Numbered from the stretch's first letter, positions 133-62,441 are shown. The stretch: 64,000 bases of DNA from Malaciobacter pacificus (GCF_004214795.1 NZ_CP035928.1:372001-436000), one strand, 5' to 3'. Program-made: numbers and translations. The notes: a model not told the origin generated them from the letters alone.

Positions 133-162
133 TAATATAAATTCAAAAAATATGTGGTAAAC

Positions 163-885: not shown

Positions 886-888
886 AAA

Positions 889-1698: not shown

Positions 1699-1749
1699 TT
1701 TGCTTAGACAAATTCCCAATTTGTTATCAAAATTTTTAAGGAGAGACTT

Positions 1750-3525: not shown

Positions 3526-3562
3526 TTTGAATATTTAAAAATCTATAAAGGAGGTACTAATC

Positions 3563-3637
3563 ATGAAATGGGAAACACCAATGTTTGTTGATAATAGATT
3601 TGGTTTTGAAGTGACAATGTACATTTGTCACAACTAA
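3563..3637 (+). CDS. pqqA: PQQ precursor peptide PqqA (copy behind the dehydrogenase)
   Basis: A 24-residue peptide starting MKWETP with the diagnostic core FEVTMYI. Family knowledge: the Glu and Tyr of the E-x3-Y core are crosslinked by PqqE with PqqD and become PQQ; here they are E16 and Y20. A very strong ribosome site, AAAGGAGGT, lies 7 bases before the ATG. It sits between the dehydrogenase and pqqB, with a terminator after it, the usual way to make peptide in excess of enzymes. A Cys two residues after the Tyr is shared by all three copies in this window. Confidence 0.93.
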   Translation: MKWETPMFVDNRFGFEVTMYICHN

Positions 3638-3690
3638 GAAAAGTTAGATACTTTCCAAATTTAGTTTTTAGTTAAAAGTTTTAGTTTATA

Positions 3691-3725
3691 AACAAGTCAG
3701 TTTGCTCAACTGGCTTGTTTTTTTA
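3691..3725 (+). terminator. Terminator or attenuator between pqqA and pqqB
   Basis: An imperfect hairpin (AACAAG-CAGTT paired with AACTG-CTTGTT) is followed by a run of T. It would end most pqqA transcripts before pqqBCDE and so raise pqqA dosage relative to the enzymes. Confidence 0.75.
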
Positions 3726-3737
3726 TAATTGAGTTTA

Positions 3738-3746
3738 TGCTAATAT
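3738..3746 (+). promoter_or_regulatory. Probable extended -10 promoter of pqqBCDE
   Basis: TGC followed by TAATAT fits the extended -10 pattern seen elsewhere in this window, with a purine-rich ribosome site AGAGAGG before the pqqB ATG at 3780. No GCTA pair precedes it, so pqqB may be expressed apart from the dehydrogenase promoter. Confidence 0.45.
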
Positions 3747-3779
3747 AAGTTCAATTATGAAAAGAGAGGTAAGGTTTTT

Positions 3780-4697
3780 ATGAAAATTCAAGTTTTAGGT
3801 TCTGGAGCTGGAGGAGGTCTTCCTCAATTTAATTGTAATTGTGACAATTGTAAAGGTTATAGAGAAGGAAAGCCTACAATTAAAAGAAGAACTCAAAGTT
3901 CAATCACAATTAGTGAAGATGGTGAAAACTGGGTATTATTTAATACTAGTCCTGATATTTTAGAGCAAATTCACAACTCACCTTTTTTACATCCTACTAA
4001 AAAAAGAGAAACTAAAATTAAAGCAATCGTGTTTAATGATGCTCAAATAGATCATACAACAGGTTTATTGATGCTAAGAGAAGGTTGCCCTCACGAGATT
4101 TACTGTACAAAAGAAGTAAATGAAGAGTTAAATACATCATTTCCTACTATGAAAATGTTACAACACTGGGATGGTGGTGGAACTAATTGGCATGAAATAC
4201 TTCCTGATTCAACAACAAAATTTGAAATCCCTGTAATGCCTTCTTATGAGTTTTATGCACATGCATTAATTTCGAATGCACCACCTTATTCAGCTCACAG
4301 AGATAAGCCAAGACGTGGTGATAATATTGGAATTACAGTAGTTAATAAAAATACTGGAAAAAGACTGTTTTATCTTCCAGGTCTTGGAGTTATGGAAGAT
4401 CATGTTTTTGAAGAGATGAGAAATGCAGATGTTCTTTTAATTGAAGGAACACTTTGGACAAATGATGAAATGATTAAAGGAAAGTTCTCAAATAAACTTG
4501 GAACTGATATGGGACATATTCCATTAAGTGGTGATGAAGGACTTATTAAAGTATTAGATACTTTAGAAAAGCCTAGAAAAATTTTAATTCATATTAATAA
4601 TACAAATCCAATTCTAGATGAAAGTAGTGATGAGTATAAAGAATTGATATCTCATGGAATAGAAGTTTCATATGATGGCATGAGTATCGAAATTTAG
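3780..4697 (+). CDS. pqqB: PqqB, metallo-beta-lactamase-fold PQQ biosynthesis protein
   Basis: At 305 residues this is full length for PqqB. It shows the N-terminal [14 protein letters not shown], the zinc-binding cysteine cluster CNCDNC, and [11 protein letters not shown] where hydrolase-type metallo-beta-lactamases have HxHxDH. Family knowledge: PqqB acts in the middle of PQQ synthesis, hydroxylating the Glu-Tyr crosslinked product. It is first in the pqqB-C-D-E run, with 14 bases to pqqC. No PqqF or PqqG protease gene is visible in the window, so peptide trimming must be done by a protease encoded elsewhere. Confidence 0.96.
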
Positions 4698-4711
4698 TAG
4701 TAGGAGAAATT

Positions 4712-5458
4712 ATGAGTAAGTTATTAAGTAAAGAAGAGTTTGAAGCAAAACTAAGAGGTATGGGTAGTATGTATCATATCCACCATCCGTTTCATATCAG
4801 AATGTACAAAGGAGAATGTACAAAAGAGGAGATTCAAGGATGGGTTGCAAATAGATTCTATTATCAAACAGCAATACCTATTAAAGATGCAGCTATTATG
4901 TCAAATAACCCACCATTAGAAGATAGAAGAAAATGGTTAGATAGAATTATTGACCATGATAGCGTTGGTGGTGGAATTGAAGCTTGGTTAGAGTTAGGTG
5001 AAGCTGTTGGATTAAATAAAGAGGATTTAATTTCTCATAAGTATGTATTACCTTCTGTTAAATTTGCAGTTGATGCATATATTAACTTTGCTAAACAAAG
5101 ACCTTGGAAAGAAGCTGCAATGTCATCATTAACTGAGATGTTTGCACCTCAAATTCACCAACAAAGATTATCAACTTGGCCTGATAATTATCCTTGGATA
5201 AAACCAGAAGGTTTAAGATATTTCCAAAAAAGATTAAGTGAAGCAAGAAGAGATGTTCAACATGGATTATCAATTACTTTAGAAGAATTCAATACGGTTG
5301 AACTTCAAGAGAAAGCTTGTGAGATTTTACAATTTAAATTAGATATACTATGGACAATGTGTGATGCGTTGTATTTAGCATACGAGTTAAAACAACCTCC
5401 ATACTTCAATATTGAAGGGGCAGAAAATGCACAAAGAAAAATTAATTGCAGTGAATAA
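4712..5458 (+). CDS. pqqC: PqqC, pyrroloquinoline-quinone synthase
   Basis: A 248-residue cofactorless oxidase that performs the final ring closure and eight-electron oxidation to PQQ. It is helical and of family length, with conserved stretches [11 protein letters not shown] near the N-terminus, the NRFYYQ segment and [11 protein letters not shown]. It follows pqqB by 14 bases with ribosome site AGGAG, and overlaps the pqqD start by 32 bases. Confidence 0.96.
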
Positions 5459-5696
5459 TCACTTTCAATTGCAATTTGAAAAAGCACAAGATTGCTTTGT
5501 ATTATTGTATCCTGAAGGAATGGTTCAGTTAAACCAAAGTGCTGGTGAGATTATGAACCAATGTGATGGAACTAAAAATTTTAATCAAATAGTAGAAACT
5601 TTAGAAAAAAAATTTGATATGTCTGGACTAGAAAAAGATGTAGAAGCTTTCTTTACTGAGGCATTTGAGAGAAAGTGGGTAAATTATGTCGACTAA
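5427..5696 (+). CDS. pqqD: PqqD, peptide chaperone (RRE domain)
   Basis: An 89-residue protein starting MHKEKL. ATG at 5427, preceded by GAAGGGG, is chosen over an upstream in-frame TTG at 5412. PqqD is the founding RiPP recognition element: it binds the PqqA leader and presents it to PqqE. The segments [18 protein letters not shown] and CDG fit the family. It overlaps pqqC (5427-5458) and pqqE (5686-5696), which suggests translational coupling. Confidence 0.93.
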
Positions 5697-6816
5697 TGAA
5701 AAAGTAAATGATATTAAACCACCATTATGGGTATTATTAGAATTAACACATAAGTGTCCTTTAGAGTGTACTTATTGTTATAATCAATTAGATTTTGCTA
5801 ATACAAAAGATGAAATGATAAAAGAAGACTGGTTTAGAGTCATGGAAGAAGTGAGAGAACTAGGTGCAGTACAATTAGGAATTTCTGGTGGTGAACCATT
5901 ACTTAATAAAGACATAGTTGAAATTGTTGCAAAAGCTAGTGAATTAGGTTTTTATACAAACTTAATTACTTCAGGAGTAGGTGCTCCTGAAGGGATTATT
6001 GGTAAATTAAAAGATGCAGGATTAAAAACTGTTCAACTTGGTATTCAATCTCATGATAAAGATACTATGACTTTAGTAACTAATCACAAAGGTGCTTATG
6101 AGCAAAAGTTAAAAATTGCAAAAGAGATTAAAGATGCAGGATTACAATTAATTGTAAATACTTGTATAACTAGACAAAATATTCATCAAGTTGGTGAGAT
6201 TATTGAGTTTGCAGATGAGACTTTAGATGCTGATTATTTAGAGATTGCAAATATTCAATATTATGGATGGGCACTACAAAATGTAAATGCGCTTTTACCA
6301 AATAAAGAGCAATTAACTAAAGCAAAAGAAGTAACAGATAAATATAGATCAAAAAAGAAAGACATGAAAGCTTTCTTTGTTGTTCCAGATTATTTTGCTG
6401 ATAGACCAAAAGCTTGTATGAATGGATTAGGGACTACTTTCTTAACTATTAATCCAGATGGAATGGCACTACCATGTAATACAGCAAATACTATGCCTAT
6501 ACAGTGGCCTAATGTTAAGAACTCTTCAATCAAAGAAATTTGGTTTGATTCAGAGCAATTCAATCACTTTAGAGGCGATTCATGGATGAGTGAACCTTGT
6601 AGAACATGTGATGAAAGAGATAAAGATTTTGGTGGTTGTAGATGTCAAGCTTATGCACTAACAGGTGATATGCATGCAACTGATCCTGTTTGTTCAAAAT
6701 CTCCAGACCATGGTGTAATTGAGAAAAAAATAGCTGATAGTGTTAAATTTGCAAACCAAGATTTGGTTTATAGAAATAAGAAAAACTCATTAGCTTTTAT
6801 AAATAAAACTTTTTAA
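5686..6816 (+). CDS. pqqE: PqqE, radical SAM PqqA crosslinking enzyme
   Basis: A 376-residue radical SAM enzyme that joins Glu and Tyr of PqqA by a carbon-carbon bond. The SAM iron-sulfur motif is C24-x3-C28-x2-C31 (CPLECTYC), the glycine-rich SGGEPLL follows, and the C-terminal SPASM region carries CRTCDERDKDFGGCRCQ and a later DPVC that bind auxiliary clusters. It is last in the pqqBCDE run and is followed directly by a bidirectional terminator. Confidence 0.96.
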   Translation: MSTNEKVNDIKPPLWVLLELTHKCPLECTYCYNQLDFANTKDEMIKEDWFRVMEEVRELGAVQLGISGGEPLLNKDIVEIVAKASELGFYTNLITSGVGAPEGIIGKLKDAGLKTVQLGIQSHDKDTMTLVTNHKGAYEQKLKIAKEIKDAGLQLIVNTCITRQNIHQVGEIIEFADETLDADYLEIANIQYYGWALQNVNALLPNKEQLTKAKEVTDKYRSKKKDMKAFFVVPDYFADRPKACMNGLGTTFLTINPDGMALPCNTANTMPIQWPNVKNSSIKEIWFDSEQFNHFRGDSWMSEPCRTCDERDKDFGGCRCQAYALTGDMHATDPVCSKSPDHGVIEKKIADSVKFANQDLVYRNKKNSLAFINKTF

Positions 6817-48566: not shown

Positions 48567-48595
48567 TTATTCTCCTACTAATAAATTTTGTATAA

Positions 48596-48783
48596 TTACA
48601 TACAAAGAGATAAGTAAGATGATCACATTTTTTTTAGATCAATGATAGAACTTTTAATGAAGTTTTATTAAATCTCCAAGGAGTCTATCACTTACTTCAA
48701 ATCCCAATAGGTTGATTAAGCTTCGAGCTTCTGTCATTATGGAGATAGGATAAAAGTAAGGTTACTTATCTGTTTGTATGTAA
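48596..48783. repeat. 22-bp inverted repeat flanking 144 bases upstream of the transposase
   Basis: Arms 48596-48617 and 48762-48783 are reverse complements except for one base. The left arm overlaps the expected olsF promoter, the right arm the transposase promoter. It may close a 188-base RNA fold, mark an element boundary, or be a shared protein site; see findings. Confidence 0.7.
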
Positions 48784-48808
48784 AATAACATTTGTAAAGG
48801 TATTTGTG
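48618..48808 (+). ncRNA. Candidate IS110 bridge RNA region
   Basis: IS110-group elements carry a structured noncoding RNA between their left end and the transposase gene. Here the stretch before the ATG holds a stem TGATAGA/TCTATCA (about 48643-48690) with an inner CTCCAAGGAG hairpin, a hairpin AAGCT-TCG-AGCTT (48718-48730), and a hairpin around AAGTAA-GG-TTACTT. Exact ends and guide segments are not determined. Confidence 0.45.
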
Positions 48809-50005
48809 ATGTATAAACAATTCATAGGAATAGATATTTCTAAAGATAGCTTTGATTTAACACTACTTGAAAATAGTGGTGAAATTAAACTAGAAGTAAA
48901 GCTTACAATGAATAGAGATGGATTTGATACTTTAGTAGAGTATTTATCCACATATCCTAAAGAAGAGCTTTTAATAGCAATGGAAGCAACTGGTATTTAT
49001 CATTTACCACTATTATCTTTTTTATTAGAAAATAGTTTTAAGTGTGTAGTGATTAATCCAATACTCATAAAGAGTTTTATTGGTTCAACTACCCTTAGAA
49101 AAACTAAGAATGATAAAAAAGATGCAGCTTCAATTGCTCTATTTAGTTTAAAATCATATCAATCTTTACATCTTGCTAGTACTAATAATATTGAAAATAT
49201 TAGACCGCTTATCCGTGAAAGAGAAAACCTCTCGAAAGATGTAGCAAGATTAAAAACTGAAATAAAAGCTAATTTAGTGCAATTATTCCCTGAATTGTTA
49301 AAGAACACAAATATATTTACAAAGAGCATTTTAAATCTGCTCCTTAAAGCTCCTAGCCGTAAAGCAATTAGGAACTTAAGGGAAAAGACCATCCAACGAA
49401 TCTTAGATGATACAAGTGGCAATAAAGTTAAAATTACTGCAAAGGATATATTAGCCTTAGCAAAAACTTCTATCGCCGTATCCGATAAATATCTTGAAAA
49501 GGTTTTAACTTCTAAAATTAGAAGATTAATAGCTATTCAAGATGAATTATCTATTCTAGATTCTGAGTTGGAAAACTCTTTAGAAGATACTGATATAAAC
49601 AATGATATTGATATAGTACAATCAATACCAGGAATTGGAGCAGTAACTTCTAAAAACTTTATGGTTGAAGTATCCTCTGTTGATAAGTTTAATTCCGTAA
49701 AGCAACTATGTGCTTTTATAGGAATTGACCCATCAGTTAGACAAAGTGGTACTTCAATCAACTATAGGGGCAAAATCTCTAAAAGAGGTAATGCAAACCT
49801 TAGAAGAACTATTTGGCAAATGGCAATTGGTACTATTCGTTCTTGTGAAAAATTTAAACTCTATTTCTCTAAAAAACGAGAAGAAGGTAAAAAATTCAAA
49901 CAAGCTGTTATTGCTGTTGCAAATAAACTTCTAAAAACAATATTTGTAATGTTAAAGAACAAAACCAAATTTGATGAAAATTTAGCTTTAGGTGTTTCCA
50001 AATGA
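48809..50005 (+). CDS. IS110-family transposase (DEDD recombinase)
   Basis: A 398-residue enzyme starting MYKQFIGIDISKD. The N-terminal RuvC-like domain shows the first Asp (GIDISKDSFD), Glu (AMEATGIYH) and the Asp-rich KNDKKDAASIA. A coiled coil lies near 140-160. The C-terminal transposase_20 domain has SIPGIGAVTSKNFMVEV, FIGIDPSVRQSGTS and the catalytic Ser region. The frame is intact, so the element may be active. ATG at 48809 follows an in-frame GTG and has AAAGG upstream. Known members are guided by a bridge RNA to their target. Confidence 0.93.
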   Translation: MYKQFIGIDISKDSFDLTLLENSGEIKLEVKLTMNRDGFDTLVEYLSTYPKEELLIAMEATGIYHLPLLSFLLENSFKCVVINPILIKSFIGSTTLRKTKNDKKDAASIALFSLKSYQSLHLASTNNIENIRPLIRERENLSKDVARLKTEIKANLVQLFPELLKNTNIFTKSILNLLLKAPSRKAIRNLREKTIQRILDDTSGNKVKITAKDILALAKTSIAVSDKYLEKVLTSKIRRLIAIQDELSILDSELENSLEDTDINNDIDIVQSIPGIGAVTSKNFMVEVSSVDKFNSVKQLCAFIGIDPSVRQSGTSINYRGKISKRGNANLRRTIWQMAIGTIRSCEKFKLYFSKKREEGKKFKQAVIAVANKLLKTIFVMLKNKTKFDENLALGVSK

Positions 50006-50067
50006 AACTTTAAAATCTTTGTTTTTTAGTTAGGTTTCTTTATAGTTGACTCCTTAATGCAATTGTA

Positions 50068-50103
50068 GTTACCTTTGATTACAAAAAGGTAACACTTTTT
50101 TTA
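50068..50103 (+). terminator. Terminator after the IS110 element
   Basis: GTTACCTTT (50068-50076) and AAAGGTAAC (50085-50093) form a 9-bp stem, followed by ACTTTTTTTA. It may belong to the host rather than to the element. Confidence 0.75.
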
Positions 50104-50123: not shown

Positions 50124-50156
50124 TGTTATCATTTTGTAATGGATTAAATTTATAAT
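50124..50156 (+). promoter_or_regulatory. Pho-box-like tandem operator and promoter of the heme/NicO operon
   Basis: TGTTATC (50124-50130), a 4-base spacer, TGTAATG (50135-50141), and TATAAT starting 16 bp after the start of the second box. The two PhoX genes have the same layout. The 7+4+7 arrangement matches that of PhoB boxes. Confidence 0.65.
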
Positions 50157-50183
50157 AAGTCTCAAATTTATGGGAGATATTTT

Positions 50184-51935
50184 ATGTTTAAAAGAATTAT
50201 GTTACTTAGTGTTTTAATTTCTACAACTGCTTTTAGTAGTGAGATAGACTTAAAATCAAAAAAACTATATAACAAAACTGCATATATACCAAGTCAGTGC
50301 TACACAAAAACAACAAATAATGCCAACGAAAATATATTACATAATCCATGTTTTAGTTGCCATGTAAAAAATAAAAAACCAAACTATACATTATTAGATG
50401 ATGATTTACAAGAAGCTTATGATTTCCCTTCTCATGCATTAAAAAATAGATGGACTAATCTTTACAAAGATAGAACTAAACAAATATCAAAAATCAGTGA
50501 TAAATCTATATTGGATTATATAAGAGAAGATAACTATAAAAATAAAGATGGCGAAATTATTTTAAAGTCTAAACTAGAAAATTTAAATAAAGATTGGGAT
50601 TTCAATAACAATGGTAAATGGGATGGTTATATCCCTGATATAAACTTCAAATTTGATAATGAAGGTTTTGATAGAACTAATGATAATAAATATACAGGAT
50701 GGAGAGCTTTTTCATACCAACCATTTTTAGGAACATTTTGGCCAACAAATGGAAGTACAGATGATGTTTTAATAAGGCTTTCAAAAGAGTTCCAAAATGA
50801 TGAATCAGGAAAGTTTGATTTAGAAGTATATAAAACTAATTTATTAATTATTGAATCTTTAATCAAGCAAAAAACACTTGATATTGAGAATACTGATGAA
50901 AAAAAGTATGGGGTAGATTTAAACCAAAATGGAAAATTAGATATTGCATCTCAAATTGTATTTAATTGGATAAAACCAAAGTATGATATGAAAACTAGAA
51001 AAATTTATGATTTTTCAATGAGTTATGTAGGAGAAGCAAAAAAACTTTTGGAAGATAATACTTTAAAAATTGCTCCTGGACTTTATCCTATTGGAACTGA
51101 GTTCGCTCATACAGTTAGATATATTGATATTAGTAAAGATAAAAAAATCAAAATGTCATCAAGATTAAAAGAGTTTAGATATGCAAAAAAAATAAATTGG
51201 AATACTTATGCTCAATTAAATAATCTCGGCCTTGCTGATATTAAAGAAAGGCATGATTTCCCTGATAGATTAGATGTATATTTAGGTAATTTAGAGACTG
51301 GACTTGGAAATAAAAGAGGTTGGTATTATCAAGGTTTTATTGAAGATAAAAAAGGTGATTTAAGACCTCAAACTTATGAAGAAACTCTTTATTGTATGGG
51401 ATGTCATAGTAATATTGGAGCAATTGCTGATTCTACTTTTGTATATCAAAGAAAGTTAGAAAAGGGCTCTTATTTAGATGGTTGGTATCACTGGACACAA
51501 AAAGGAATCGAAGGAATTCCTGATAAAAAACTTCCTAATGGACAAACAGAATATGTTAGATATTTAAAAGAGAATAGTGCAGGTGATGAGTTAAGAGCAA
51601 ATGATGAGATTGTAGAAAAATTTTTCAAAAAGAATTGGGAAAAAGATGCTGAAAATATTGAAAAAGATTTGATTACTAAATTAGAAGATCCGAAAGCTAT
51701 TTTAAAACAAGAGTGGAAATTTAAGCAAAAAGAGTTAGAAAAAATAAAAAATGATATCTCTTACTTAATTCTTCCAAGTGAGAAAAGAGCAATTACTTTA
51801 AATAAAGCATACAAAGTGATTGTTGATGAACAAAGTTATATTTATGGAAGAGACGTACATGTAAAACCAGCTATTAATGTACATAAAGAGTTGAAAGCTG
51901 GAACAATGACTCATTTACAAAAGGTTGAACAATGA
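50184..51935 (+). CDS. Periplasmic di-heme c-type protein with EF-hand-like loops
   Basis: A 583-residue exported protein with a signal peptide (cleavage after AFS). Two heme c motifs are visible: CFSCH near residue 56 and CMGCH near 410. Calcium-loop-like segments DFNNNGKWD and DLNQNGKLD occur between them. I do not recognise a named family. It is first of a four-gene run with 4-base overlaps (NicO permease, DUF1007, small His-Pro protein) behind a Pho-box-like promoter. An electron-transfer or metal-linked oxidation role is possible; no substrate can be named. Confidence 0.7.
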   Translation: MFKRIMLLSVLISTTAFSSEIDLKSKKLYNKTAYIPSQCYTKTTNNANENILHNPCFSCHVKNKKPNYTLLDDDLQEAYDFPSHALKNRWTNLYKDRTKQISKISDKSILDYIREDNYKNKDGEIILKSKLENLNKDWDFNNNGKWDGYIPDINFKFDNEGFDRTNDNKYTGWRAFSYQPFLGTFWPTNGSTDDVLIRLSKEFQNDESGKFDLEVYKTNLLIIESLIKQKTLDIENTDEKKYGVDLNQNGKLDIASQIVFNWIKPKYDMKTRKIYDFSMSYVGEAKKLLEDNTLKIAPGLYPIGTEFAHTVRYIDISKDKKIKMSSRLKEFRYAKKINWNTYAQLNNLGLADIKERHDFPDRLDVYLGNLETGLGNKRGWYYQGFIEDKKGDLRPQTYEETLYCMGCHSNIGAIADSTFVYQRKLEKGSYLDGWYHWTQKGIEGIPDKKLPNGQTEYVRYLKENSAGDELRANDEIVEKFFKKNWEKDAENIEKDLITKLEDPKAILKQEWKFKQKELEKIKNDISYLILPSEKRAITLNKAYKVIVDEQSYIYGRDVHVKPAINVHKELKAGTMTHLQKVEQ

Positions 51936-52663
51936 CAAATTTTTATGATAGTTTTTTAAACTTTGTAATAAGTACACAGCAAAAAATAAATTTAACAATA
52001 AGTGATTCTTTTGATAAATTAGAATCAGGTGATAATAGTATGTTTATGTATATTTTAGCTGTTTCTTTTATTTATGGGCTGATTCATGCTTTAGGGCCAG
52101 GTCATGGAAAAATGGTAATTGCAAGCTACTTTTTAGTTAAAGGTGCAAAAATGAAAGAAGCTTTTAAAGCAGGTTTTTTAACTTCTATTATTCACACAAT
52201 TTCTGCTTTAGCTATTACTTTTGTACTATATCTATTTTTTGAAAGTGCAATTACAAAATATTTTTCTGATATAAATACGAATATATATAAGATATCGGCT
52301 ATATTTATTATAGCAATAGCTCTATTTTTATTATATGAAACATATAAAGATAGAAATGAAAAAGAAAAGTTTCAAAGAGTAGGAAATAAAAGCTTATTAG
52401 CAGTCACGATGAGTATAGGAATTGTGCCCTGTCCTGGTGTTATGTCAATAGTTCTTTTTTCTATAATCTTAGGATATATAAATCTTGGAATTTTAAGTGC
52501 TATAACTATGAGTATTGGAATGGGAATCACAATTTCATTAGCTGCTATTTTATCAACACAAATAAAAAAATCAAAAAGTAAGAATCTTAGCTCAATTATG
52601 AATATTATTACTTATGGTGGAATTGCTGTGTTATTTTCAATGGGGGCTATACTATTAGTATGA
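51932..52663 (+). CDS. NicO/RcnA-type metal permease
   Basis: A 243-residue membrane protein with about six helices. The conserved HALGPGHGKMVIASYF motif and the second motif GIVPCPGVMSIVLFS mark the NicO family of nickel or cobalt transporters, some of which export (RcnA). The His-rich loop of RcnA is absent. Neighbouring DUF1007 genes are a common partner of this family. The transported metal is not decided by sequence. Confidence 0.85.
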   Translation: MTNFYDSFLNFVISTQQKINLTISDSFDKLESGDNSMFMYILAVSFIYGLIHALGPGHGKMVIASYFLVKGAKMKEAFKAGFLTSIIHTISALAITFVLYLFFESAITKYFSDINTNIYKISAIFIIAIALFLLYETYKDRNEKEKFQRVGNKSLLAVTMSIGIVPCPGVMSIVLFSIILGYINLGILSAITMSIGMGITISLAAILSTQIKKSKSKNLSSIMNIITYGGIAVLFSMGAILLV

Positions 52664-53142
52664 AAAAGTTAAGTCTATTTATTTTTTTAACAATAAGTTT
52701 ATATGCACATCCTCACTATTTTTTAGATTCAAGTTTGGAAGTTTCAAATGAAAATATAAAAAATATTTGGAAATTTGATAGATTAAATTCAAAAATATTG
52801 ATGTTTGATTTTGATAAGAATAAAAATAAAATATTAGATGAAGAAGAAAAAATAGAGTTTTTAAACTCTCATTTTTTTAAATTAAAACAGAACAATTATA
52901 ATATATTTTTAGCAAATGAGGAAACGGAATTTAACATTGAACCTAAAAATGTTGATTTAGTTTTTGATAAAAAAAGATTAAGTATAGTTTTTGATATACC
53001 TTTTCATCTTTCAAGTGATACTACAATATGTACAATGGATGAAAAAATAATGCTTGCTTATAAATTAGATAAATTAAACACAAATTATAAAACAGATATT
53101 CAAAAAAGTGAATATGATTATTGTATTGGAGTATTAAAATGA
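52660..53142 (+). CDS. DUF1007 family periplasmic protein with His-Pro N-terminus
   Basis: A 160-residue protein; signal cleavage after YA gives a mature chain starting HPHYF, the typical DUF1007 start. A loop DFDKNKNKILDEEE resembles an EF-hand calcium site. Two cysteines (TTICTM, DYCIG) may pair. DUF1007 proteins accompany metal permeases and may bind the transported metal. It overlaps both neighbours by 4 bases. Confidence 0.8.
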   Translation: MKKLSLFIFLTISLYAHPHYFLDSSLEVSNENIKNIWKFDRLNSKILMFDFDKNKNKILDEEEKIEFLNSHFFKLKQNNYNIFLANEETEFNIEPKNVDLVFDKKRLSIVFDIPFHLSSDTTICTMDEKIMLAYKLDKLNTNYKTDIQKSEYDYCIGVLK

Positions 53143-53450
53143 AAAAGTTATTATTAATATTTTTATTTGCAACTATTGGATTTTCACATCCTGTAAGTTA
53201 TACAATAGATTTAGCTGTATCTTATGATGAAGATTCAAAAACTGCAAAAATAGATTGTGCTAGTAATAGTAAAAACAAGTGCGGATTGTATTCAGTTCGT
53301 TTACTTGATAAAAATGATAAGCAGATAGTAGATAAAAGATTTCCTTTTTTAAAAAATTCAATAAACATAAAATCTGATATAAAACCTTCTAAGTTAGAGT
53401 TTTATCTAAGAAAAACGCCAGAGCATTTATATGTAAAAATATTTGATTAA
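53139..53450 (+). CDS. Small exported protein with His-Pro N-terminus
   Basis: A 103-residue protein of no family known to me. The signal peptide (MKKLLLIFLFATIGFS) would leave a mature start HPVSYTIDL, like that of the DUF1007 protein before it. Two cysteines (KIDCAS, NKCGLY) lie close together. The fold is likely a beta sandwich by its alternating pattern. ATG at 53139 overlaps the DUF1007 stop (ATGA). Metal binding through the N-terminal His is inference. Confidence 0.6.
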   Translation: MKKLLLIFLFATIGFSHPVSYTIDLAVSYDEDSKTAKIDCASNSKNKCGLYSVRLLDKNDKQIVDKRFPFLKNSINIKSDIKPSKLEFYLRKTPEHLYVKIFD

Positions 53451-53475
53451 TGGTAATTTTTTTAGTTACCATTAA
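53447..53475 (+). terminator. Hairpin after the metal operon
   Basis: TTAATGGTAA (53447-53456) and TTACCATTAA (53466-53475) are exact reverse complements around a T-rich loop. Confidence 0.65.
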
Positions 53476-53569
53476 TTCTTATTAAACTTATCAACTATTC
53501 TTTAACCTACCTAAAAATAGAGCTTACAAACTATTTTTTTTAAATCATTTTACTAACCATCTTGATAAA

Positions 53570-53602
53570 TGTTATCAAAGTGTAATTGTTACTTTTTACA
53601 AT
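53570..53602 (+). promoter_or_regulatory. Pho-box-like operator and promoter of the first PhoX fusion gene
   Basis: TGTTATC (53570-53576), spacer AAAG, TGTAATT (53581-53587), -10 TACAAT at 53597-53602, 16 bp from the start of the second box. Confidence 0.7.
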
Positions 53603-53646
53603 ACTTGTTCATTTAAAAATATAAAATTCAAATAAGGAAGCAAAAA

Positions 53647-56600
53647 ATGAATAAAAGCTATCTAAGTTTAAGTGCATGTGCACTTTTAGCTACTTTTACG
53701 TTTGTTGGTTGTGGAAGTTCTAATAGTTCTTCTACTTCATCAGGTACATTACAATTAAATCCAACTCTTGGTAATATTGATTATATTTGTGGTTCTACTA
53801 GTGGAACTACAGATGAAAGTGGTAAATATAAATTTAGTTCAGGAGATGAGTGTGAATTTACTTTTGGTGGAGTTACTTTAAAAGCAACACCATCTGCAAA
53901 TCTTACAATTGAATCAATTTTAGAAGACACTACAAAAAATCCTAATATATCACAAGATGCAATTTGGGGATATGTTTCTGCTGCGACTGGATTATCTCAA
54001 GCTGAATTATCAAAAGCTGGAAAAGCTCATATAAAAGATGATTTTAAAAATGCAACTGATGATATTACTGATTTTTCTTCATTTGATAGATTTGAAACAG
54101 CACTATTAGATGATGATGATTTTGCTTTATTAACTGATGAAAATGATATATCTTTAAAAGAAAAGTTTGAAACAAATAAAGCAAAAATTTCTTCAGCTAA
54201 AACTACAAAAAGAGTTGATGTTAGATTTGAAGGAATTTCTACACCTGTAAAAGAAGAAACAAAATTAACTCAACAATCAAGCAGTAAAGTTTATATAAAT
54301 GGAGAAGAACAAGAAATCAATTACACTCCTATTATGAAAACTGGTTTTAAAGATACAAATGATGAAGTTTTCGGATTAGTTAAAGATATGAATGATAAGA
54401 TTATTTCATTTGAAGATGGCAATCCTTATATTTGTAATGGTACAAATGAAGGTGTTGGTTCAGGCTTAGACTATACATCTTTTTTAAATGTTAATGATAA
54501 ATTATATATGGTTTCTCAATTTGAGTGTCAAATCGGTGCTATGTATATGACTGAGTTAGTTCAAAATGAGGAAACTGGTGCTTTAACTCCTAAAGAGGGT
54601 ACATTAGAATTTATTTCTCAAAAAGATGAATTTGGTGGTTTTGTTCACTGTGCAGGACAAAAAACACCTTGGGAGTCTCATTTAGGTTCAGAAGAGTATG
54701 AAAATGATGCAAGAGCAGTAGAAAAAGCTGGGTTTGATAAAGCAGTTGGGAGTACTTCTTATGATGAAACTGTAAAATTCTGGGGTGGTGATTTTGAAAA
54801 GATGAGTCCATATTATTATGGTTGGACACCAGAAGTAAAAATCACACAAGAGGGTGAAGCTGATTATTCAAAACATTATGCGATGGGTAGATTTTCCCAT
54901 GAATTATCTTATGTAATGCCAGATAATAAAACAGTTTATATGAGTGATGATGGTACAAATGTTGGATTATATATGTTTGTTGCAGATAAACCAACTGATT
55001 TAACATCAGGTACATTATATGCTGCAAAATGGGAACAAACATCTGAAGTTGGTGTTGGTGCAGGTGAAGCTGATATTTCATGGATTAATTTAGGGCATGC
55101 TACAAATAGTGAAATTAGAGAATATTTAGATCCAGATGGTGATGTTTCAACTAATGATGGATTAAAATTCTCAGATATCTTTGATGCAGTTGATGGAACA
55201 GATGGAACTTGTTCAGAAGGTTATACTTCAATAAATACAAGTGTAGGACATGAGTGTTTAAAAATCAAAGATGGTATGAAAAAAGCAGCTTCAAGACTTG
55301 AAACAAGAAGATACTCAGCTATGATGGGAGCAACAACTGAATTTAGAAAAGAAGAAGGTATTACATATGATAAAAATACTGGAACTTTATATGTTGCTAT
55401 GAGTTCTGTTGAAAGAGGAATGGAAGATAAGCAAAAATCTGGAAAGAGTGAAACTAAATACGATATTGGTGGAAATAATGATATTAAAGTGCAATACAAT
55501 AGTTGTGGAGCTATTTATGCCCTTGATGTAAATGCTAATGAGGCTATGGATTTAGAAAAAAATAGTATTTCATCTAAATATGTTGTAAATAACATGTACT
55601 CAATTTTAGAAGGTAATCCAACAACTTATGATGAAAATTCAGATTATTCAGAAAATGGTTGTGACGTAAATGGAATTTCTAATCCAGATAATGTAACTTT
55701 CTTAGAAAATTCAAACATTTTAATGATTGGTGAAGATACTGGTAAACATGAAAATAATATGGTTTGGGCTTATGATGTACAAACAAAAGAGTTAACAAGA
55801 GTATTTACTACTCCTATTGGTGCTGAAACGACTTCTCCATTTTGGTATACAGATTTAGCAAATGGTTATGGATATATGTCAGTTGTGACACAACATCCAG
55901 ATGATAAAACAAGTGATGCTGGTCAGTCTGTTATTGGTTATGTAGGACCATTTAAAAATCTAACTAAATTAGAAGCAACAGATACTGTTTCTATCTTCCA
56001 TGTAAACGATACTCATTCACATATTTCAAGTGAAGGGATGGATTTAGAGATTAATGGAACTGAAATTGAGTTTGATGTAGGTGGATATGCTAGATATGTA
56101 ACAAAATTAGATGAGTTAAAGAAAAATAAACCAAACTCTTTAATTTTAAATGCAGGTGATGTATTTCAAGGTACATTATATTACTCATTATTTAAAGGTG
56201 AAGCTGATGCTGCTGCTATGAATATGATTAAGTGGGATGCTTATGCTTTAGGAAATCATGAGTTTGATGATGGAGATGAGGGCTTAAAATCTTTCTTAGA
56301 TATGTTAAATGAAGATATTTCGGTTATCTCTTCAAATGTTGTACCACAAAGTGGAAATATTTTAGAAAATTATTGGAAGCCTTATATTGTAAAAGAGATA
56401 AATGGTAAAAAAGTTGGTGTAATTGGAATTGATATTGTAGGTAAAACTAAAAACTCATCTAATCCAAGTGATACAATTACATTCTTAAATGAAATAGAAA
56501 CAGCTCAAAAATATATTGATGAATTAAAAGACAATGGAGTTGATAGAGTAGTATTATTAACTCATCAAGGTTATGATTATGATTTAGCAATGGCACCTCA

Positions 56601-57678
56601 ATTAAGTGGAGTTGATGTTATTGTTGGTGGAGATTCTCATTCATTACTTGGAGATTTTTCTAAATTAGGATTATCAAGTGTTTCAAATGATTATCCTACA
56701 AAAGTTTCAGATAAAGATGGAAATAAAGTTTGTGTAGTTCAAGCTTGGGAATATGGACATATCTTAGGTGATTTAGATGTTGTATTTAATAAAGATGGTG
56801 AAGTAATTGACTGTAGTGGTACTCCAAGATTATTAGTAGGTACAGATTCAATTGATGAAAATCTTTTATCAACAGTAAATGAAGTAATTAGTGATAATAA
56901 AAATATTGAAGTTGTAGTTGAAGATGAAGCTACTTTAAATGTAATTAAAAACTATGAAAATCAAGTAGATGTAAAAAAAGCTTTAGTTATTGGTGAAGCT
57001 TCAGAAACTTTAGGTCATAACAGAATTCCAGGAGATATGAAAGATGGTGTTAGTAATTTACCATTAGGTTCAGATATCGCTCCAATTGTTGCTAAATCAT
57101 TTTATGATTTAAGTAATTTAGCAGATGCTTGTATTCAAAATGCAGGTGGAGTTAGAGTTAAAATTGATTCAGGAAATATTACAATGGGTGATGCTTATAC
57201 ATTATTACCATTTGCAAATACTTTATTTGAAATTAAAATGAAAGCTCAAGAGATTAAAGATGTGTTAGAGGATGCTATTGAAGAAGCATTTTATGGTGGT
57301 GAGGATATGACAGTTTCAACTGGTTCATTCCCTTATTCTTATGGATTAAAATATGATGTTGATGCAAGTGCTCAAGCAGGAAATAGAATTCAAAATCTAG
57401 AAATGAAAGATAGAGAAACTGGAACTTGGTCTACTTTAAATTTATCTGATGATACAACTTTATATACTATTGTGACTAACTCTTATACAGCTGGTGGTAA
57501 AGATGGTTATTTAACATTTAAATCAGTTCAAGATGAAAGAGGAGTTGGTACAGATACATATTTAGACTATGCTATGAGTTTTGTAAAATATGTTGAAACT
57601 AAAGCTGCAAATAATGAATTAGTGACAAAACTACCTGCTCAAGACCATCCTATAAAAAGTTTTGTAGGACTTAAATAA
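53647..57678 (+). CDS. PhoX-type lipoprotein fused to a 5'-nucleotidase
   Basis: A 1343-residue lipoprotein (lipobox FVGC, C22). An N-terminal propeller region (about 200-775) resembles the PhoX/DUF839 alkaline phosphatase family, with ETRRYSAMMGATTEFRKEEG and CDVNGISNPDNV segments. The C-terminal part is a UshA-type 5'-nucleotidase: metal motifs FHVNDTHSH, NAGDVFQG, ALGNHEFDDG, LLTHQGYDYD and GGDSHS, then the substrate domain with NAGGVRVKIDSG. Together they would free phosphate from nucleotides outside the cell. Its promoter has Pho-box-like repeats. It shares its N-terminal part with the next gene. Confidence 0.85.
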   Translation: MNKSYLSLSACALLATFTFVGCGSSNSSSTSSGTLQLNPTLGNIDYICGSTSGTTDESGKYKFSSGDECEFTFGGVTLKATPSANLTIESILEDTTKNPNISQDAIWGYVSAATGLSQAELSKAGKAHIKDDFKNATDDITDFSSFDRFETALLDDDDFALLTDENDISLKEKFETNKAKISSAKTTKRVDVRFEGISTPVKEETKLTQQSSSKVYINGEEQEINYTPIMKTGFKDTNDEVFGLVKDMNDKIISFEDGNPYICNGTNEGVGSGLDYTSFLNVNDKLYMVSQFECQIGAMYMTELVQNEETGALTPKEGTLEFISQKDEFGGFVHCAGQKTPWESHLGSEEYENDARAVEKAGFDKAVGSTSYDETVKFWGGDFEKMSPYYYGWTPEVKITQEGEADYSKHYAMGRFSHELSYVMPDNKTVYMSDDGTNVGLYMFVADKPTDLTSGTLYAAKWEQTSEVGVGAGEADISWINLGHATNSEIREYLDPDGDVSTNDGLKFSDIFDAVDGTDGTCSEGYTSINTSVGHECLKIKDGMKKAASRLETRRYSAMMGATTEFRKEEGITYDKNTGTLYVAMSSVERGMEDKQKSGKSETKYDIGGNNDIKVQYNSCGAIYALDVNANEAMDLEKNSISSKYVVNNMYSILEGNPTTYDENSDYSENGCDVNGISNPDNVTFLENSNILMIGEDTGKHENNMVWAYDVQTKELTRVFTTPIGAETTSPFWYTDLANGYGYMSVVTQHPDDKTSDAGQSVIGYVGPFKNLTKLEATDTVSIFHVNDTHSHISSEGMDLEINGTEIEFDVGGYARYVTKLDELKKNKPNSLILNAGDVFQGTLYYSLFKGEADAAAMNMIKWDAYALGNHEFDDGDEGLKSFLDMLNEDISVISSNVVPQSGNILENYWKPYIVKEINGKKVGVIGIDIVGKTKNSSNPSDTITFLNEIETAQKYIDELKDNGVDRVVLLTHQGYDYDLAMAPQLSGVDVIVGGDSHSLLGDFSKLGLSSVSNDYPTKVSDKDGNKVCVVQAWEYGHILGDLDVVFNKDGEVIDCSGTPRLLVGTDSIDENLLSTVNEVISDNKNIEVVVEDEATLNVIKNYENQVDVKKALVIGEASETLGHNRIPGDMKDGVSNLPLGSDIAPIVAKSFYDLSNLADACIQNAGGVRVKIDSGNITMGDAYTLLPFANTLFEIKMKAQEIKDVLEDAIEEAFYGGEDMTVSTGSFPYSYGLKYDVDASAQAGNRIQNLEMKDRETGTWSTLNLSDDTTLYTIVTNSYTAGGKDGYLTFKSVQDERGVGTDTYLDYAMSFVKYVETKAANNELVTKLPAQDHPIKSFVGLK

Positions 57679-57690
57679 TTAACTTATTAA

Positions 57691-57722
57691 AGATATTTAG
57701 AGTTAAACAACTCTAAATATCT
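57691..57722 (+). terminator. Terminator between the two PhoX genes
   Basis: A perfect 14-bp stem (57691-57704 with 57709-57722) and a 4-base loop, followed by a short pyrimidine stretch. It separates the paralogs into two transcripts. Confidence 0.8.
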
Positions 57723-57836
57723 CTTCTATTTGATACCATTTTAGATTTTTTAGATTTTTTTTAATTTTATAAAATCCCCATAAATATGTAATTTTTACCA
57801 TTATTATCTATTGATAATAGTTACCACTTAGAAAAA

Positions 57837-57869
57837 TGTTATCAAAGTGTAATTGTTACTTTTTACAAT
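57837..57869 (+). promoter_or_regulatory. Pho-box-like operator and promoter of the second PhoX fusion gene
   Basis: TGTTATC (57837-57843), spacer AAAG, TGTAATT (57848-57854), -10 TACAAT at 57864-57869; same spacing as the first paralog and near-identical flanks. Confidence 0.7.
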
Positions 57870-57914: not shown

Positions 57915-60900
57915 ATGAATAAAAGCTATCTAAGTTTAAGTGCGTGTGCACTTTTAGCTACTTTTACGTTTGTTGGTTGTGGAAGTTCAAGTAATACTAC
58001 TACTTCAACTGGTACACTACAATTAAATCCAGCTTTAGGAAATATTACTTATGACTGTGGAGATGGAGAAAAAACTACAGATGAAAATGGAAAATATTCA
58101 TATATAGCAGGAAGTGAGTGTGAATTTACTTTTGGAGGAGTTAAGTTAAAAGCAAATCCATCTGCAAATCTTACAATTGAATCAATTTTAGAAGACACTA
58201 CAAAAAACCCTAATGTATCTCAAGGTGCAATTTGGGGATATATTTCTGCTGCAACAGGTTTAAGTCAAGCTGAACTTTCAAGTGCAGGGAAAGTATCTCT
58301 TTCTGATGCATTTAAAAGTGCAACTGATGATATAAGTGATTTTACTTCTTTTGATAGTTTAAGTGAAGATTTAGAAGCAAGTTCAGGTTTTGCAGCTTTA
58401 ACAGACTCAAATGGTAAATTTTTAAAAGATAAATTTGCATCAAATAAAGCAAAAATCTCTTCAGCTAAAACTGCTAAAAGAGTAGATGTTAGATTTGAAG
58501 AGATTGAAACACCAGTTTCAAGTGATGATAAACTTACACAACAAGCTAGCTCAAAAGTTATGATTAATGATGAAGAACAAGCAATTTCATATAAAACTAT
58601 TTTTAGAACTGGATTAGAAGGAAATGGAGAAGTTTTAGGACAATCAAAAGATTATCAAGATAAATTAATTACATTTGAAGATGGAAGTCCTTATATTTGT
58701 AATGGTTCTAAAGGTGCTGAAAATAGAGAAGAAGGTTCAGGAATGGATTTTACTTCATTACATAATGTAGATGGGAAAATCTTTGCTATTTCTCAATATG
58801 AGTGTGCACTAGGTTCTATGTATATGATGGAATTAGAGCAAAAAGGAGATGGTGAACTAATTGCAAAAAAAGATACACTTCAATATATCTCTCAAAAAGA
58901 TGAGTTTGGTGGATTTGTTCACTGTGCAGGTCAAACAACACCTTGGTCTTCTCATTTATCTTCTGAAGAGTATGAGCCAGATGCAAAAGACACTAGTAAA
59001 AATAGTTATCATTTAGAACTAAAGAAATACTGGGGAGAGAATGATTATAGTGCATATTACTATGGATGGACTCCTGAAGTAAAAATTGAAAATGAAAAAC
59101 CAGTTTATTCAAAACATTATGCAATGGGAAGATTTTCCCATGAATTATCTTATGTAATGCCTGATAATAAAACAGTTTACATGAGTGATGATGGTACAAA
59201 TGTTGGATTATTTATGTATGTATCTGATACTGCTAAAGATTTAAGTGCTGGAACATTATATGCTGCAAAATGGAATCAAACATCTGAAGTTGGTATTGGT
59301 TTAGGTGAAGCAGATATTCAATGGATCTCTTTAGGTCATGCTACAAATGAACAAATTAGAGCAATTATCGACCCTGATGGGGATATTACTACAAATGATG
59401 CTCCAACATTTGCTGATATTTTTGATATTAGTGAAGGAACAGATGGTTCTTGTACACAAGGGTATGTTTCTATTAATACAAGTGCAGGACATGAGTGTTT
59501 AAAAATAAAAGAGGGTATGGAATTAGCAGCATCTAGATTAGAAACTAGAAGATATGCAGCTTATATGGGTGCTACAACTGAGTTTAGAAAAGAAGAGGGT
59601 ATTACTTTTGATAAAAACTCTGGAAAGTTATATGTTGCTATGAGTGAAGTTTCAAAAGGTATGGCCGCAGATTCATCTAATGATTTAGGTGGAAATGATG
59701 ATATAAAAGTTGAAGCTAATAAGTGTGGAGGAATTTATGCTTTAGATGTTTCAACTAATAGTGTAAAAGATACAAATGAGTCTGTAATACCTTCAAAATA
59801 TGTTGTTGAAAATATGTATGGAATTTTATCTGGGAATCCTATTTCTTATGCAGAAGGAACTACTTATGCAGGTAATTCTTGTGATGTAAATGGTATTGCA
59901 AACCCTGATAATGTAACTTTCTTACCAAACTCTGATGTATTAATTATTGGAGAAGATGCTGGTTCAAGTGTTCATCAAAATAATGTTGTTTGGAGTTATA
60001 ATGTAAAAACTGAAGAGTTAAGTAGAATTTTTACTACACCTTTAAGTGCTGAAACAACTTCACCATTTTGGTATCCTGAACTTGCAAATGGATTTGGATA
60101 TTTATCTGTTGTAACTCAACACCCAAGTTTTGATTCAACTGATGAAGGAGAGTCAGCATTTGGTTATGTAGGGCCATTTAAAAACTTAACTTCTTTAGAA
60201 AATGTAAAATCAATTGACTCTGTAACAAAAATTGCTACACTAGACACAAAAGTTGAAGGTGGAAGTGAGATTGTTGCTTTTGATAAAGATTCAAAAAAAA
60301 TGTTTACAACAAATGGTAAAAATAATACTTTAGATATTACACCAATAAATGAAGATGGAACAATAGGTTCAACAACTGCTATTGATTTATCAGCTTATGG
60401 AGCAGGAGTTCAAAGTGTTGCTGTATCAAATGGAAAAGTTGCCGTTGCAGTTGGAAGCGATGATAAAGTAAATACTAAAGGTAAAGTTGTGATTTTTGAC
60501 ACAGCAGGAGTTTTAGTATCTCAAACTACAGTTGGATATTTACCTGATATGGTAACATTTAGTGAAGATGGAAATAAAGTGATTGTTGCAAATGAAGGTG
60601 AACCTGATGCAAGTTCGGGAACTTATGTTGATGTTGCTGGAACTATTGGTATTGTAACTGTTGCAAATACTGATAAAGATGATAATGCAAATGGATATGC
60701 TGAGGTTGGATTTGAAAATGCAACATTAAGCGATGCACTTGATGGAACACCAGTTAGATTAGGTGGAACACCAAGTAATGATAAAGCTTTAGATTTAGAA
60801 CCAGAGTATATTACAGTTAGTGGAACTTACGCTTATGTAACATTACAAGAAAATAACGCAGTAGCTAAAATTGATATTAGTACATCAACTCCTGTTGTAA

Positions 60901-61670
60901 TAGCTGTTAAATCTTTAGGAGCTAAAGATTATTCTAGTGAAAATTTAATTGATATTGAAGAAGAGGGATATGCTTTATTTAAAAACTATCCAGGATTAAA
61001 AGGTTTATATATGCCTGACTCAATCTCTTCATATAAAGTTGATGGTAAAACTTATTTAGTTACTGCTAATGAAGGTGATGGAAGAGAGTATTTAGATTCA
61101 GCAGATGAAGATGTATTTGTAGATGAAAAGAAAATCTCTAAGTTAGACTTAGACTCTTCAATAGCTGCTGCTTATGAAGATGAAAATGACTTAAAAGTAG
61201 TAACTGATATGGGTGATTCAAATAACGATGGTTTATATGAAGAATTATATACTTATGGTGCAAGAAGTTTTACTATTTGGGATGATGAAGCAAATTTAGT
61301 TTGGGATAGTGGTGATGCACTTTCTAAATTAACATCTAAAATGATGCCAAATTTATTTAACCAAGATGAAGGTGAAATTGATGGTAGAAGTGGAAATAAA
61401 GGTGTTGAACCTGAAGCTTTAACTGTTGGGAAAATAGGAACACAAACTTATGCTTTTGTAGGATTAGAAAGACAAAATGCAATTGTAGTTTATGATATTA
61501 CAACTCCTGAAAATGCAAAATTTGTTAAGTTTATAAATACTGAAGCACAAGGTGATATTTCACCTGAAGGTATGAGTTTTGTTGATGCTGAAAACTCTCC
61601 TACTGGAAATGCACTATTACTAGTTGCTTTTGAAGTTAGTGGAACAACAGCTGTATATGAAATCAAATAA
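57915..61670 (+). CDS. PhoX-type lipoprotein fused to a choice-of-anchor-I propeller
   Basis: A 1251-residue paralog of the preceding gene. Signal peptide and lipobox are identical, and the PhoX-like region (about 200-770) is clearly related throughout. The C-terminal part (about 780-1250) differs: it is a beta-propeller of the choice-of-anchor-I type (VTANEGDGREY, EGEIDGRSGNKGVEPEALTV-like segments, GDISPEGMSF). In other bacteria that propeller is often joined to a 5'-nucleotidase, the module present in the sister protein. Phosphatase or phytase-like action is likely for the first half; the role of the second half is unknown. Confidence 0.82.
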   Translation: MNKSYLSLSACALLATFTFVGCGSSSNTTTSTGTLQLNPALGNITYDCGDGEKTTDENGKYSYIAGSECEFTFGGVKLKANPSANLTIESILEDTTKNPNVSQGAIWGYISAATGLSQAELSSAGKVSLSDAFKSATDDISDFTSFDSLSEDLEASSGFAALTDSNGKFLKDKFASNKAKISSAKTAKRVDVRFEEIETPVSSDDKLTQQASSKVMINDEEQAISYKTIFRTGLEGNGEVLGQSKDYQDKLITFEDGSPYICNGSKGAENREEGSGMDFTSLHNVDGKIFAISQYECALGSMYMMELEQKGDGELIAKKDTLQYISQKDEFGGFVHCAGQTTPWSSHLSSEEYEPDAKDTSKNSYHLELKKYWGENDYSAYYYGWTPEVKIENEKPVYSKHYAMGRFSHELSYVMPDNKTVYMSDDGTNVGLFMYVSDTAKDLSAGTLYAAKWNQTSEVGIGLGEADIQWISLGHATNEQIRAIIDPDGDITTNDAPTFADIFDISEGTDGSCTQGYVSINTSAGHECLKIKEGMELAASRLETRRYAAYMGATTEFRKEEGITFDKNSGKLYVAMSEVSKGMAADSSNDLGGNDDIKVEANKCGGIYALDVSTNSVKDTNESVIPSKYVVENMYGILSGNPISYAEGTTYAGNSCDVNGIANPDNVTFLPNSDVLIIGEDAGSSVHQNNVVWSYNVKTEELSRIFTTPLSAETTSPFWYPELANGFGYLSVVTQHPSFDSTDEGESAFGYVGPFKNLTSLENVKSIDSVTKIATLDTKVEGGSEIVAFDKDSKKMFTTNGKNNTLDITPINEDGTIGSTTAIDLSAYGAGVQSVAVSNGKVAVAVGSDDKVNTKGKVVIFDTAGVLVSQTTVGYLPDMVTFSEDGNKVIVANEGEPDASSGTYVDVAGTIGIVTVANTDKDDNANGYAEVGFENATLSDALDGTPVRLGGTPSNDKALDLEPEYITVSGTYAYVTLQENNAVAKIDISTSTPVVIAVKSLGAKDYSSENLIDIEEEGYALFKNYPGLKGLYMPDSISSYKVDGKTYLVTANEGDGREYLDSADEDVFVDEKKISKLDLDSSIAAAYEDENDLKVVTDMGDSNNDGLYEELYTYGARSFTIWDDEANLVWDSGDALSKLTSKMMPNLFNQDEGEIDGRSGNKGVEPEALTVGKIGTQTYAFVGLERQNAIVVYDITTPENAKFVKFINTEAQGDISPEGMSFVDAENSPTGNALLLVAFEVSGTTAVYEIK

Positions 61671-61733: not shown

Positions 61734-62441
61734 ATGAATAAATCAGATATTACAAACTTACTTACTGTTTTAATCATGGCATATGGTTATTCAAATGGCA
61801 ATGATACAATTTTTATGATTGGTTTATTTGCTCTAAGTGGAGCAGTTACAAATACACTTGCGATTCATATGCTTTTTCATAAAGTTCCATTTTTATATGG
61901 AAGTGGAGTTATTGAAAACAAATTTGAACAGTTTAAATCATCAATTCATAATCTTTTAACGAATCAATTTTTCACTCAAGAACACTTAACAAAGTTTTTT
62001 CAAACAGAAGTAAATAGTGCAAAAAATACAATAGATTTTGAAAAAATTTTAAATAAAACAGATTTTACTCCAGCTTATGACTCATTAAAAACAGCAGTTA
62101 TGGAATCAAGTTTTGGTGGAATGTTAGGCATGTTTGGAGGTGAAGCGGCACTTGAACCTTTAAAAGAGCCATTTATAAAAAAACTTCAAAAATCTATAAT
62201 TGATATTACAAGTAGTGAAGCTTTTAATAAAGTTTTAGATGAGAGTTTAAAATCAGAAGATTTATCAAAAGATGTTCATAGTAAGTTAAGTGAAATTGTA
62301 AGTTCAAGATTAGATGAATTAACGCCTAAAATGGTTAAACAAATAGTGCAAGATATGATAAAAGAACATCTTGGATGGCTTGTGATTTGGGGTGCAGTTT
62401 TTGGTGGACTTATTGGGTTTGTTTCAACTTTAATAGTGTAG
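61734..62441 (+). CDS. DUF445 family membrane protein
   Basis: A 235-residue protein with N-terminal membrane segments around GLFALSGAVTNTLAIHMLF, a long helical soluble middle part, and a C-terminal membrane hairpin VIWGAVFGGLIGFVSTLIV. This is the DUF445 layout; the function is not known. A small hairpin CCCTT-AAGGG before the ATG includes the ribosome site AAGGGAG and might affect translation. Confidence 0.8.
   Translation: MNKSDITNLLTVLIMAYGYSNGNDTIFMIGLFALSGAVTNTLAIHMLFHKVPFLYGSGVIENKFEQFKSSIHNLLTNQFFTQEHLTKFFQTEVNSAKNTIDFEKILNKTDFTPAYDSLKTAVMESSFGGMLGMFGGEAALEPLKEPFIKKLQKSIIDITSSEAFNKVLDESLKSEDLSKDVHSKLSEIVSSRLDELTPKMVKQIVQDMIKEHLGWLVIWGAVFGGLIGFVSTLIV

Follow-up and report, generated by a model that had tools for sequence, protein, structure and literature searches.

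Why should an operon for a heme protein and metal handling share its promoter sites with phosphatase genes? The question is raised by a stretch of Malaciobacter pacificus DNA of 64,000 nucleotides (GCF_004214795.1, NZ_CP035928.1:372001-436000; hereafter the window, with positions counted from its first letter). A sequence-only reading had noticed that tandem boxes of the form TGTTATC-N4-TGTAATK precede two genes of the PhoX family and an operon encoding a di-heme protein, a NicO permease and a DUF1007 protein. PhoX is a widespread phosphatase in waters and soils and requires iron, and to our knowledge no route has been described by which PhoX that is exported unfolded gains its iron-calcium site.

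The analysis reported here points to a Pho-regulon island in which the di-heme cytochrome and PhoX are very probably functional partners. The earlier interpretation, that Pho-type sites tie a heme and metal operon to phosphatases, is supported both by boxes at the pst genes and by the association of the genes themselves.

Pho-type promoters in the window

A pattern search of the window recovered the three plus-strand boxes exactly (at 50124, 53570 and 57837), and at each of them the -10 element starts 16 bases past the start of the second box. The observation as a whole stands, with four corrections. A site on the minus strand, TGTTACC-TTTT-TGTAATC-N9-TACAAT (50094..50062), had been missed; it is two bases off the motif as first written. 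Moreover, a stretch of about 150 bases, covering the promoter and the lipoprotein signal peptide, is near-identical at 53570 and 57837, which indicates one duplicated promoter rather than two independent sites. A further exact match to the 18-base motif, at 25515 on the minus strand, lies inside proS and is due to chance.

Table 1. Features of the island and its flank in the window.
Feature	Position	Strand	Evidence
olsF, bifunctional ornithine lipid synthase, 570 aa	46854..48566	-	NCBIfam NF052615, 829.7 bits, above the cut-off of 620
IS110-family element, transposase 48806-50005	48572..50055 (about)	+	NF033542, 229 bits, cut-off 140
Predicted Pho box TGTTACC-TTTT-TGTAATC, ancestral olsF promoter, divergent	50077..50094	-	-10 TACAAT 50067..50062; exact match to refined pattern
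Predicted Pho box TGTTATC-ATTT-TGTAATG, upstream of di-heme operon	50124..50141	+	-10 TATAAT 50151-50156
Di-heme cytochrome, 583 aa, PhoX partner (predicted)	50184..51935	+	CxxCH at residues 56 and 404; P460/c'-beta-like core
NicO-family metal permease	51932..52663	+	PF03824, 64.9 bits, cut-off 27.7
DUF1007 periplasmic protein, HPH motif and EF-hand-like loop	52660..53142	+	PF06226, 59.8 bits, cut-off 27
Small exported protein, 103 aa, kept in operon	53139..53450	+	Orthologs after DUF1007 in 7 family loci
Predicted Pho box TGTTATC-AAAG-TGTAATT, upstream of PhoX/5'-nucleotidase gene	53570..53587	+	-10 TACAAT 53597-53602
Sec lipoprotein, divergent PhoX domain and 5'-nucleotidase (NadN-like) domain	53647..57678	+	PF05787, 82.4 bits, cut-off 24; PF00149, PF02872; lipobox
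Predicted Pho box upstream of PhoX/choice-of-anchor I gene	57837..57854	+	-10 TACAAT 57864-57869
Sec lipoprotein, divergent PhoX domain and choice-of-anchor I domain	57915..61670	+	PF05787, 89.1 bits, cut-off 24; PF22494, 283.8 bits; lipobox

By itself the 18-base motif was rejected as a genome-wide signal: at two to three mismatches it occurs 28 times against 36 expected, which is of no significance, and in a separate comparison it fell below the reversed-pattern control. Adding the -10 element at its fixed spacing makes the pattern significant. The extended form TGTNAYC-N4-TGTAATN-N9-TANAAT matches the window exactly four times, whereas about 0.0 exact matches and 0.5 at one mismatch are expected in a second-order Markov genome of 2.66 Mb. 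A closely similar pattern, TGTWAYC...TAYANT, has four exact matches genome-wide by pattern search, on which all our genome-wide statements about the box are based, and every one lies in the window (the three plus-strand sites and 50094..50062 on the minus strand). Its one-mismatch matches include sites at pstS and pstC. Candidate sites at 1251373, 1960900 and 2059897 were rejected as lying within coding sequence, and one at 351633 was set aside because it is without a proper -10 element.

The sites show an arrangement expected of a PhoB-type Pho box, with direct half-sites spaced 11 bases apart and a constant distance to the -10 element. The sites resemble the PhoB-controlled promoters of Escherichia coli and other species (reviewed in PMC4415409) in having two direct 7-base repeats at this spacing, in replacing the -35 element about ten bases upstream of the -10, and in standing at pst genes and phosphatases. 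However, the half-sites here read TGTNAYC and TGTAATN, while that of E. coli is of the TGTCATA type. They are also unlike the GTTTC repeats of PhosR sites in Campylobacter jejuni.

The same layout at the pst genes and in relatives

The sequence-only reading had staked its interpretation on a genome scan finding the motif at known phosphate genes, and the motif passed this test. Boxes with the same spacing as those of the window precede the organism's own pstS (AGTAACC AAAA TGTAATC AACTGTTAA TACAAT) and pstC (TGTAACC ATTT TGTAATT GTTCTTAAA TACCAT). The operon contains pstS, an EAL/GGDEF gene, pstC, pstA, pstB and phoU, together with a small gene and genes for a PhoB-like regulator and a PhoR-like kinase. 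The regulator (L061:3089-3763) scores 168.7 bits against the NCBIfam PhoB equivalog, short of the cut-off of 296.2, with PhoB still its best family, and it is called PhoB-like because of its position in the pst operon. The kinase likewise scores under the NCBIfam PhoR cut-off. The EAL/GGDEF gene (L061:7887-9632, minus strand) is placed between pstS and pstC, with the Pho box of pstC behind it; in one relative (G022) pstC directly follows pstS.

The 7+4+7 arrangement, which had been recognized as that of PhoB boxes, recurs not only at these genes but also at the pst genes, olsF and PhoX genes of relatives. A site within one mismatch stands before pstS, pstC or pstB at 12 of 20 pst loci (the organism's own and those of 19 relatives). 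At the same stringency the box is present in the olsF promoter of 21 of the 29 relatives read. It is also found in promoters orthologous to that of the di-heme operon (G069, G097, G049, G002, G087 and G086) and before orthologs of the PhoX/choice-of-anchor I gene (G049, G069, G097, G002, G087, G088, G060 and G022). Relatives' loci totalling 398 kb hold 37 sites with no more than one mismatch. Of these, 31 precede olsF, the di-heme gene, PhoX or pstS, and among the remaining six, two stand before PhoX genes of the Tat type; the reversed pattern yields none.

The box pattern was refined on some sequences that were later counted, and most weight is therefore placed on the organism's own pst sites, on the reversed-pattern controls and on a matrix trained only on the olsF promoters of relatives. 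In this matrix the top two scores of the pst region fall on the pstS and pstC sites, in that order, the di-heme site ranks second for the window, and both PhoX boxes score only near background. Judged from sequence, the sites of the window are very probably Pho boxes, and PhoB-type binding and a phosphate response of these promoters are predicted with high confidence. The box could serve as a Pho-regulon signature for Arcobacteraceae, usable to annotate the phosphate response.

olsF and the IS110-family element

The minus-strand site at 50094..50062 is identical base for base to the olsF promoter of two relatives (G111 and G114). Comparison of the flanks places the insertion point of the IS110-family element in the Shine-Dalgarno sequence of olsF, between this gene and its Pho promoter. 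The gene is intact and now lies about 1.5 kb from the promoter, so that the element appears to have cut olsF off from phosphate control through this box. In G002, G097, G086 and G087, olsF and the di-heme gene lie side by side, some 145 bases apart and transcribed away from each other, each with its own box. OlsF of Vibrio cholerae is under PhoB control (PMC12186959), and the Pho box at olsF in most relatives read suggests the same kind of regulation. M. pacificus differs from V. cholerae in that an IS110 element parts the gene from its box.

The element is present in six near-identical copies in the genome, one in the window and the others at G000:C1 661492, 90477, 994355, 1658488 and 969356. 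All six split an AAGGAG Shine-Dalgarno motif shortly before a start codon and supply a TAGGAG of their own. Targeting of ribosome-binding sites would be unusual for an IS110 element, and a search of open-access text gave nothing direct on it.

Two divergent PhoX lipoproteins

Both phosphatase genes encode proteins that score above the PF05787 cut-off (Table 1), which upholds their assignment to PhoX. The PhoX/5'-nucleotidase protein also reaches 431.6 bits against TIGR01530, slightly below the cut-off of 436. Campylobacter PhoX is exported by the Tat pathway (PMC3197622), and characterised PhoX is described as carrying Ca and Fe(III) cofactors (Yong et al. 2014, as cited in PMC5768637). The proteins of the window are like the characterised enzymes (PF05787; PDB 3zwu; C. 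jejuni PhoX, PMC3197622) in their domain, core metal-site motifs and Pho-type promoter, but have a Sec signal or lipobox where characterised members are typically Tat substrates. Moreover, the match to the Pfam model is confined to the C-terminal two thirds, and the domain is fused to others and paired with a di-heme cytochrome. The metal-site motifs CAxGxTPW..EE, GWxxE, HE and DD are kept in divergent PhoX, as judged from an alignment with Tat-type PhoX over only 139 columns. A search of open-access text found no relevant paper on PhoX in Arcobacter.

Pairing of the cytochrome with Sec-exported PhoX

The di-heme gene has homologs in 21 of 104 family genomes; some of the genomes compared are metagenome assemblies. 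PhoX occurs in 28 of the family genomes, in 7 as a full-length Tat-exported protein and in 21 as a divergent one, and BLAST located a further divergent copy in G002. The divergent proteins are lipoproteins or have ordinary Sec signals, while the other seven have a twin-arginine signal. All 21 di-heme genomes carry a divergent Sec-type PhoX, the di-heme gene is found in none of the seven Tat-type genomes (0/7), and a single genome (G061) has a divergent PhoX without it. This co-occurrence gives a Fisher p of 4e-21 with phylogeny not taken into account. No Tat signal was found in the PhoX proteins paired with a di-heme gene, which have a lipobox or Sec signal instead.

The order olsF, di-heme gene, NicO, DUF1007, small gene, PhoX, DUF445 is repeated in relatives such as G002, G049 and G087, and with extra genes in G069 and G097; elsewhere PhoX directly adjoins the di-heme gene. 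A wider survey of named genomes found 219 di-heme relatives, of which 80 were kept. A divergent PhoX gene is near the di-heme gene in 78 of these 80 loci and is nearly always adjacent. One of the two exceptions is a contig end (L243), and the other, in Magnetospira, has NicO and a DUF1007-like match and no PhoX (L289). The loci are spread over Campylobacterota, Gamma- and Alphaproteobacteria, Deferribacteraceae and Geobacter/Desulfocapsa-type genomes. Among 77 PhoX upstream regions of paired loci, 25 contain a box when up to two mismatches are allowed, and the reversed pattern matches none of the 77. No recognizable box at this threshold occurs in the other 52, and other phyla may use other boxes.

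These associations (21 of 21 genomes and 78 of 80 loci) bear out the proposed link between the heme and metal operon and the phosphatases. The view that this operon was not an expected phosphate gene no longer holds, since the di-heme gene is a standing partner of Sec-exported PhoX. On the evidence of gene neighbourhood, the cytochrome is very probably the dedicated partner of this mostly lipoprotein branch. Their near-constant pairing across bacterial groups suggests that the two proteins probably work together, in a manner not yet described. A search of open-access text found no paper joining PhoX with cytochrome P460, and the papers on DUF839 and a cytochrome do not concern this pair, judging by title and abstract. 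The pairing provides a likely context for a cytochrome family without a name, and a conserved partner in several phyla offers a direct, testable handle on how the PhoX metal site is loaded.

Predicted fold of the di-heme cytochrome

Both CxxCH motifs are invariant in 77 homologs, as are C19 (an extra cysteine of the mature protein), K309, E310, R312 and H289, and many homologs have calcium-loop-like motifs. A structure model built from 17 sequences had low confidence (pLDDT 63.8), whereas the one used here, from 77 sequences, is confident (pLDDT 94.0, pTM 0.93). The structural matches listed for the latter are all to cytochrome P460 or c'-beta, with a VIA Z of at most 5.5 over 136 residues, and the best Foldseek match to this group has an E of 0.03. 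The cytochrome P460 Pfam model gives weak matches in all 77 homologs (77/77), and with the protein of the window PF16694 scores 24.2 bits, below the cut-off of 27. A sequence profile found no relatives in the PDB, and the heme core alone gave chance matches only.

The core of the model thus looks like that of cytochrome P460/c'-beta, and the protein has a second heme, although membership in that group is not established. A beta-sheet heme core, predicted for the di-heme protein, may be common to both. However, the di-heme protein has about 560 residues rather than 140-160, carries a second heme in its N-terminal part and falls below the Pfam cut-off. A longer lipoprotein paralog of 770-790 residues lies next to PhoX in several relatives (L207, L205, L206, L211, L213 and L083) and is absent from the M. 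pacificus genome.

The NicO and DUF1007 genes of the operon are as first described, both scoring above their Pfam cut-offs. A Pfam search gave no match for the small exported protein, and the open-access literature yielded nothing useful on DUF1007. Most paired loci lack NicO and DUF1007, which, like the small gene, go with the pair in certain lineages only, and this implies that metal supply by them is not general.

Possible roles of the pairing

When starved of phosphate, the cell would activate the box promoters through the PhoR/PhoB-like pair of the pst operon, with two 7-base half-sites 11 bases apart standing in for the -35 element, nine bases before the -10. Under such control would be pstS, pstC, olsF (before the IS110 insertion), the operon for the di-heme, NicO, DUF1007 and small proteins, and both PhoX genes. 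Classic PhoX is exported folded through the Tat pathway, whereas the mostly lipoprotein branch would be exported unfolded through Sec and would receive iron and calcium in the periplasm. There the cytochrome could provide a redox step, either by oxidizing Fe(II) to Fe(III) during loading or by holding the site oxidized, and NicO and DUF1007 could deliver or buffer metal in lineages that have them. This metal or redox step fits the data and is the favoured mechanism, but taken alone it is a tentative proposal, less likely than not. It is possible, if somewhat short of probable, that the Sec-exported PhoX branch, which is spread over several phyla, needs a P460-like di-heme cytochrome dedicated to it. 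Such dependence would mean either that heme assists the making of an iron-calcium phosphatase in the periplasm or that the phosphatase is redox-coupled, and in both cases the kind would be previously undescribed.

A near-obligate one-to-one pairing across phyla would also fit a redox-coupled enzyme, in which the PhoX-like lipoprotein and the cytochrome oxidize or cleave an organic or reduced phosphorus compound and electrons exit through the hemes. The P460-like core, from a superfamily with enzymes among its members, and the invariance of K309, E310, R312 and H289 are consistent with this idea. However, the metal-site core of PhoX is of the hydrolase type, one PhoX is fused to a 5'-nucleotidase, which is a plain hydrolase, and nothing indicates a substrate, and we consider such an enzyme unlikely. 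It is similarly improbable that the cytochrome has an indirect role in gas sensing or electron disposal in phosphate-starved cells, without acting on PhoX. Although the P460/c'-beta superfamily includes gas-binding proteins, the cytochrome accompanies Sec-exported PhoX but in no case the Tat-exported form, and it adjoins PhoX in phyla with differing genome contexts.

The link to phosphate could itself be due to chance if the sites belonged to another OmpR-family regulator or were ordinary AT-rich promoter sequence. Tandem spacing of 11 bases is indeed common among OmpR-family sites, and the bare 18-base motif is not enriched. This explanation is nevertheless highly unlikely given the boxes at pstS and pstC beside a regulator gene, the retention of the box before olsF, PhoX and pst genes, and control counts near zero.

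Other genes near the island and the sites

The DUF445 gene (window 61734-62441) follows the second PhoX gene here and in most island-bearing relatives, and no box of its own was found. At the other end of the window (154-6816), an ABC transporter, a PQQ-type dehydrogenase and pqqB/pqqC/pqqE-like genes stand in a row, as judged from translations only. Elsewhere in the genome, a one-mismatch Pho-box-like site (G000:C1:280606-280638, minus strand; L100) lies 167 bases upstream of the gene for a 382-residue exported porin-like protein. Another Pho-box-like site stands just upstream of a 46-residue open reading frame (G000:C1:2152090-2152227, minus strand; L103). This frame has homologs in 8 of 104 family genomes, with a site of at most two mismatches near 7 of 9 copies, and possibly encodes a phosphate-controlled small protein.
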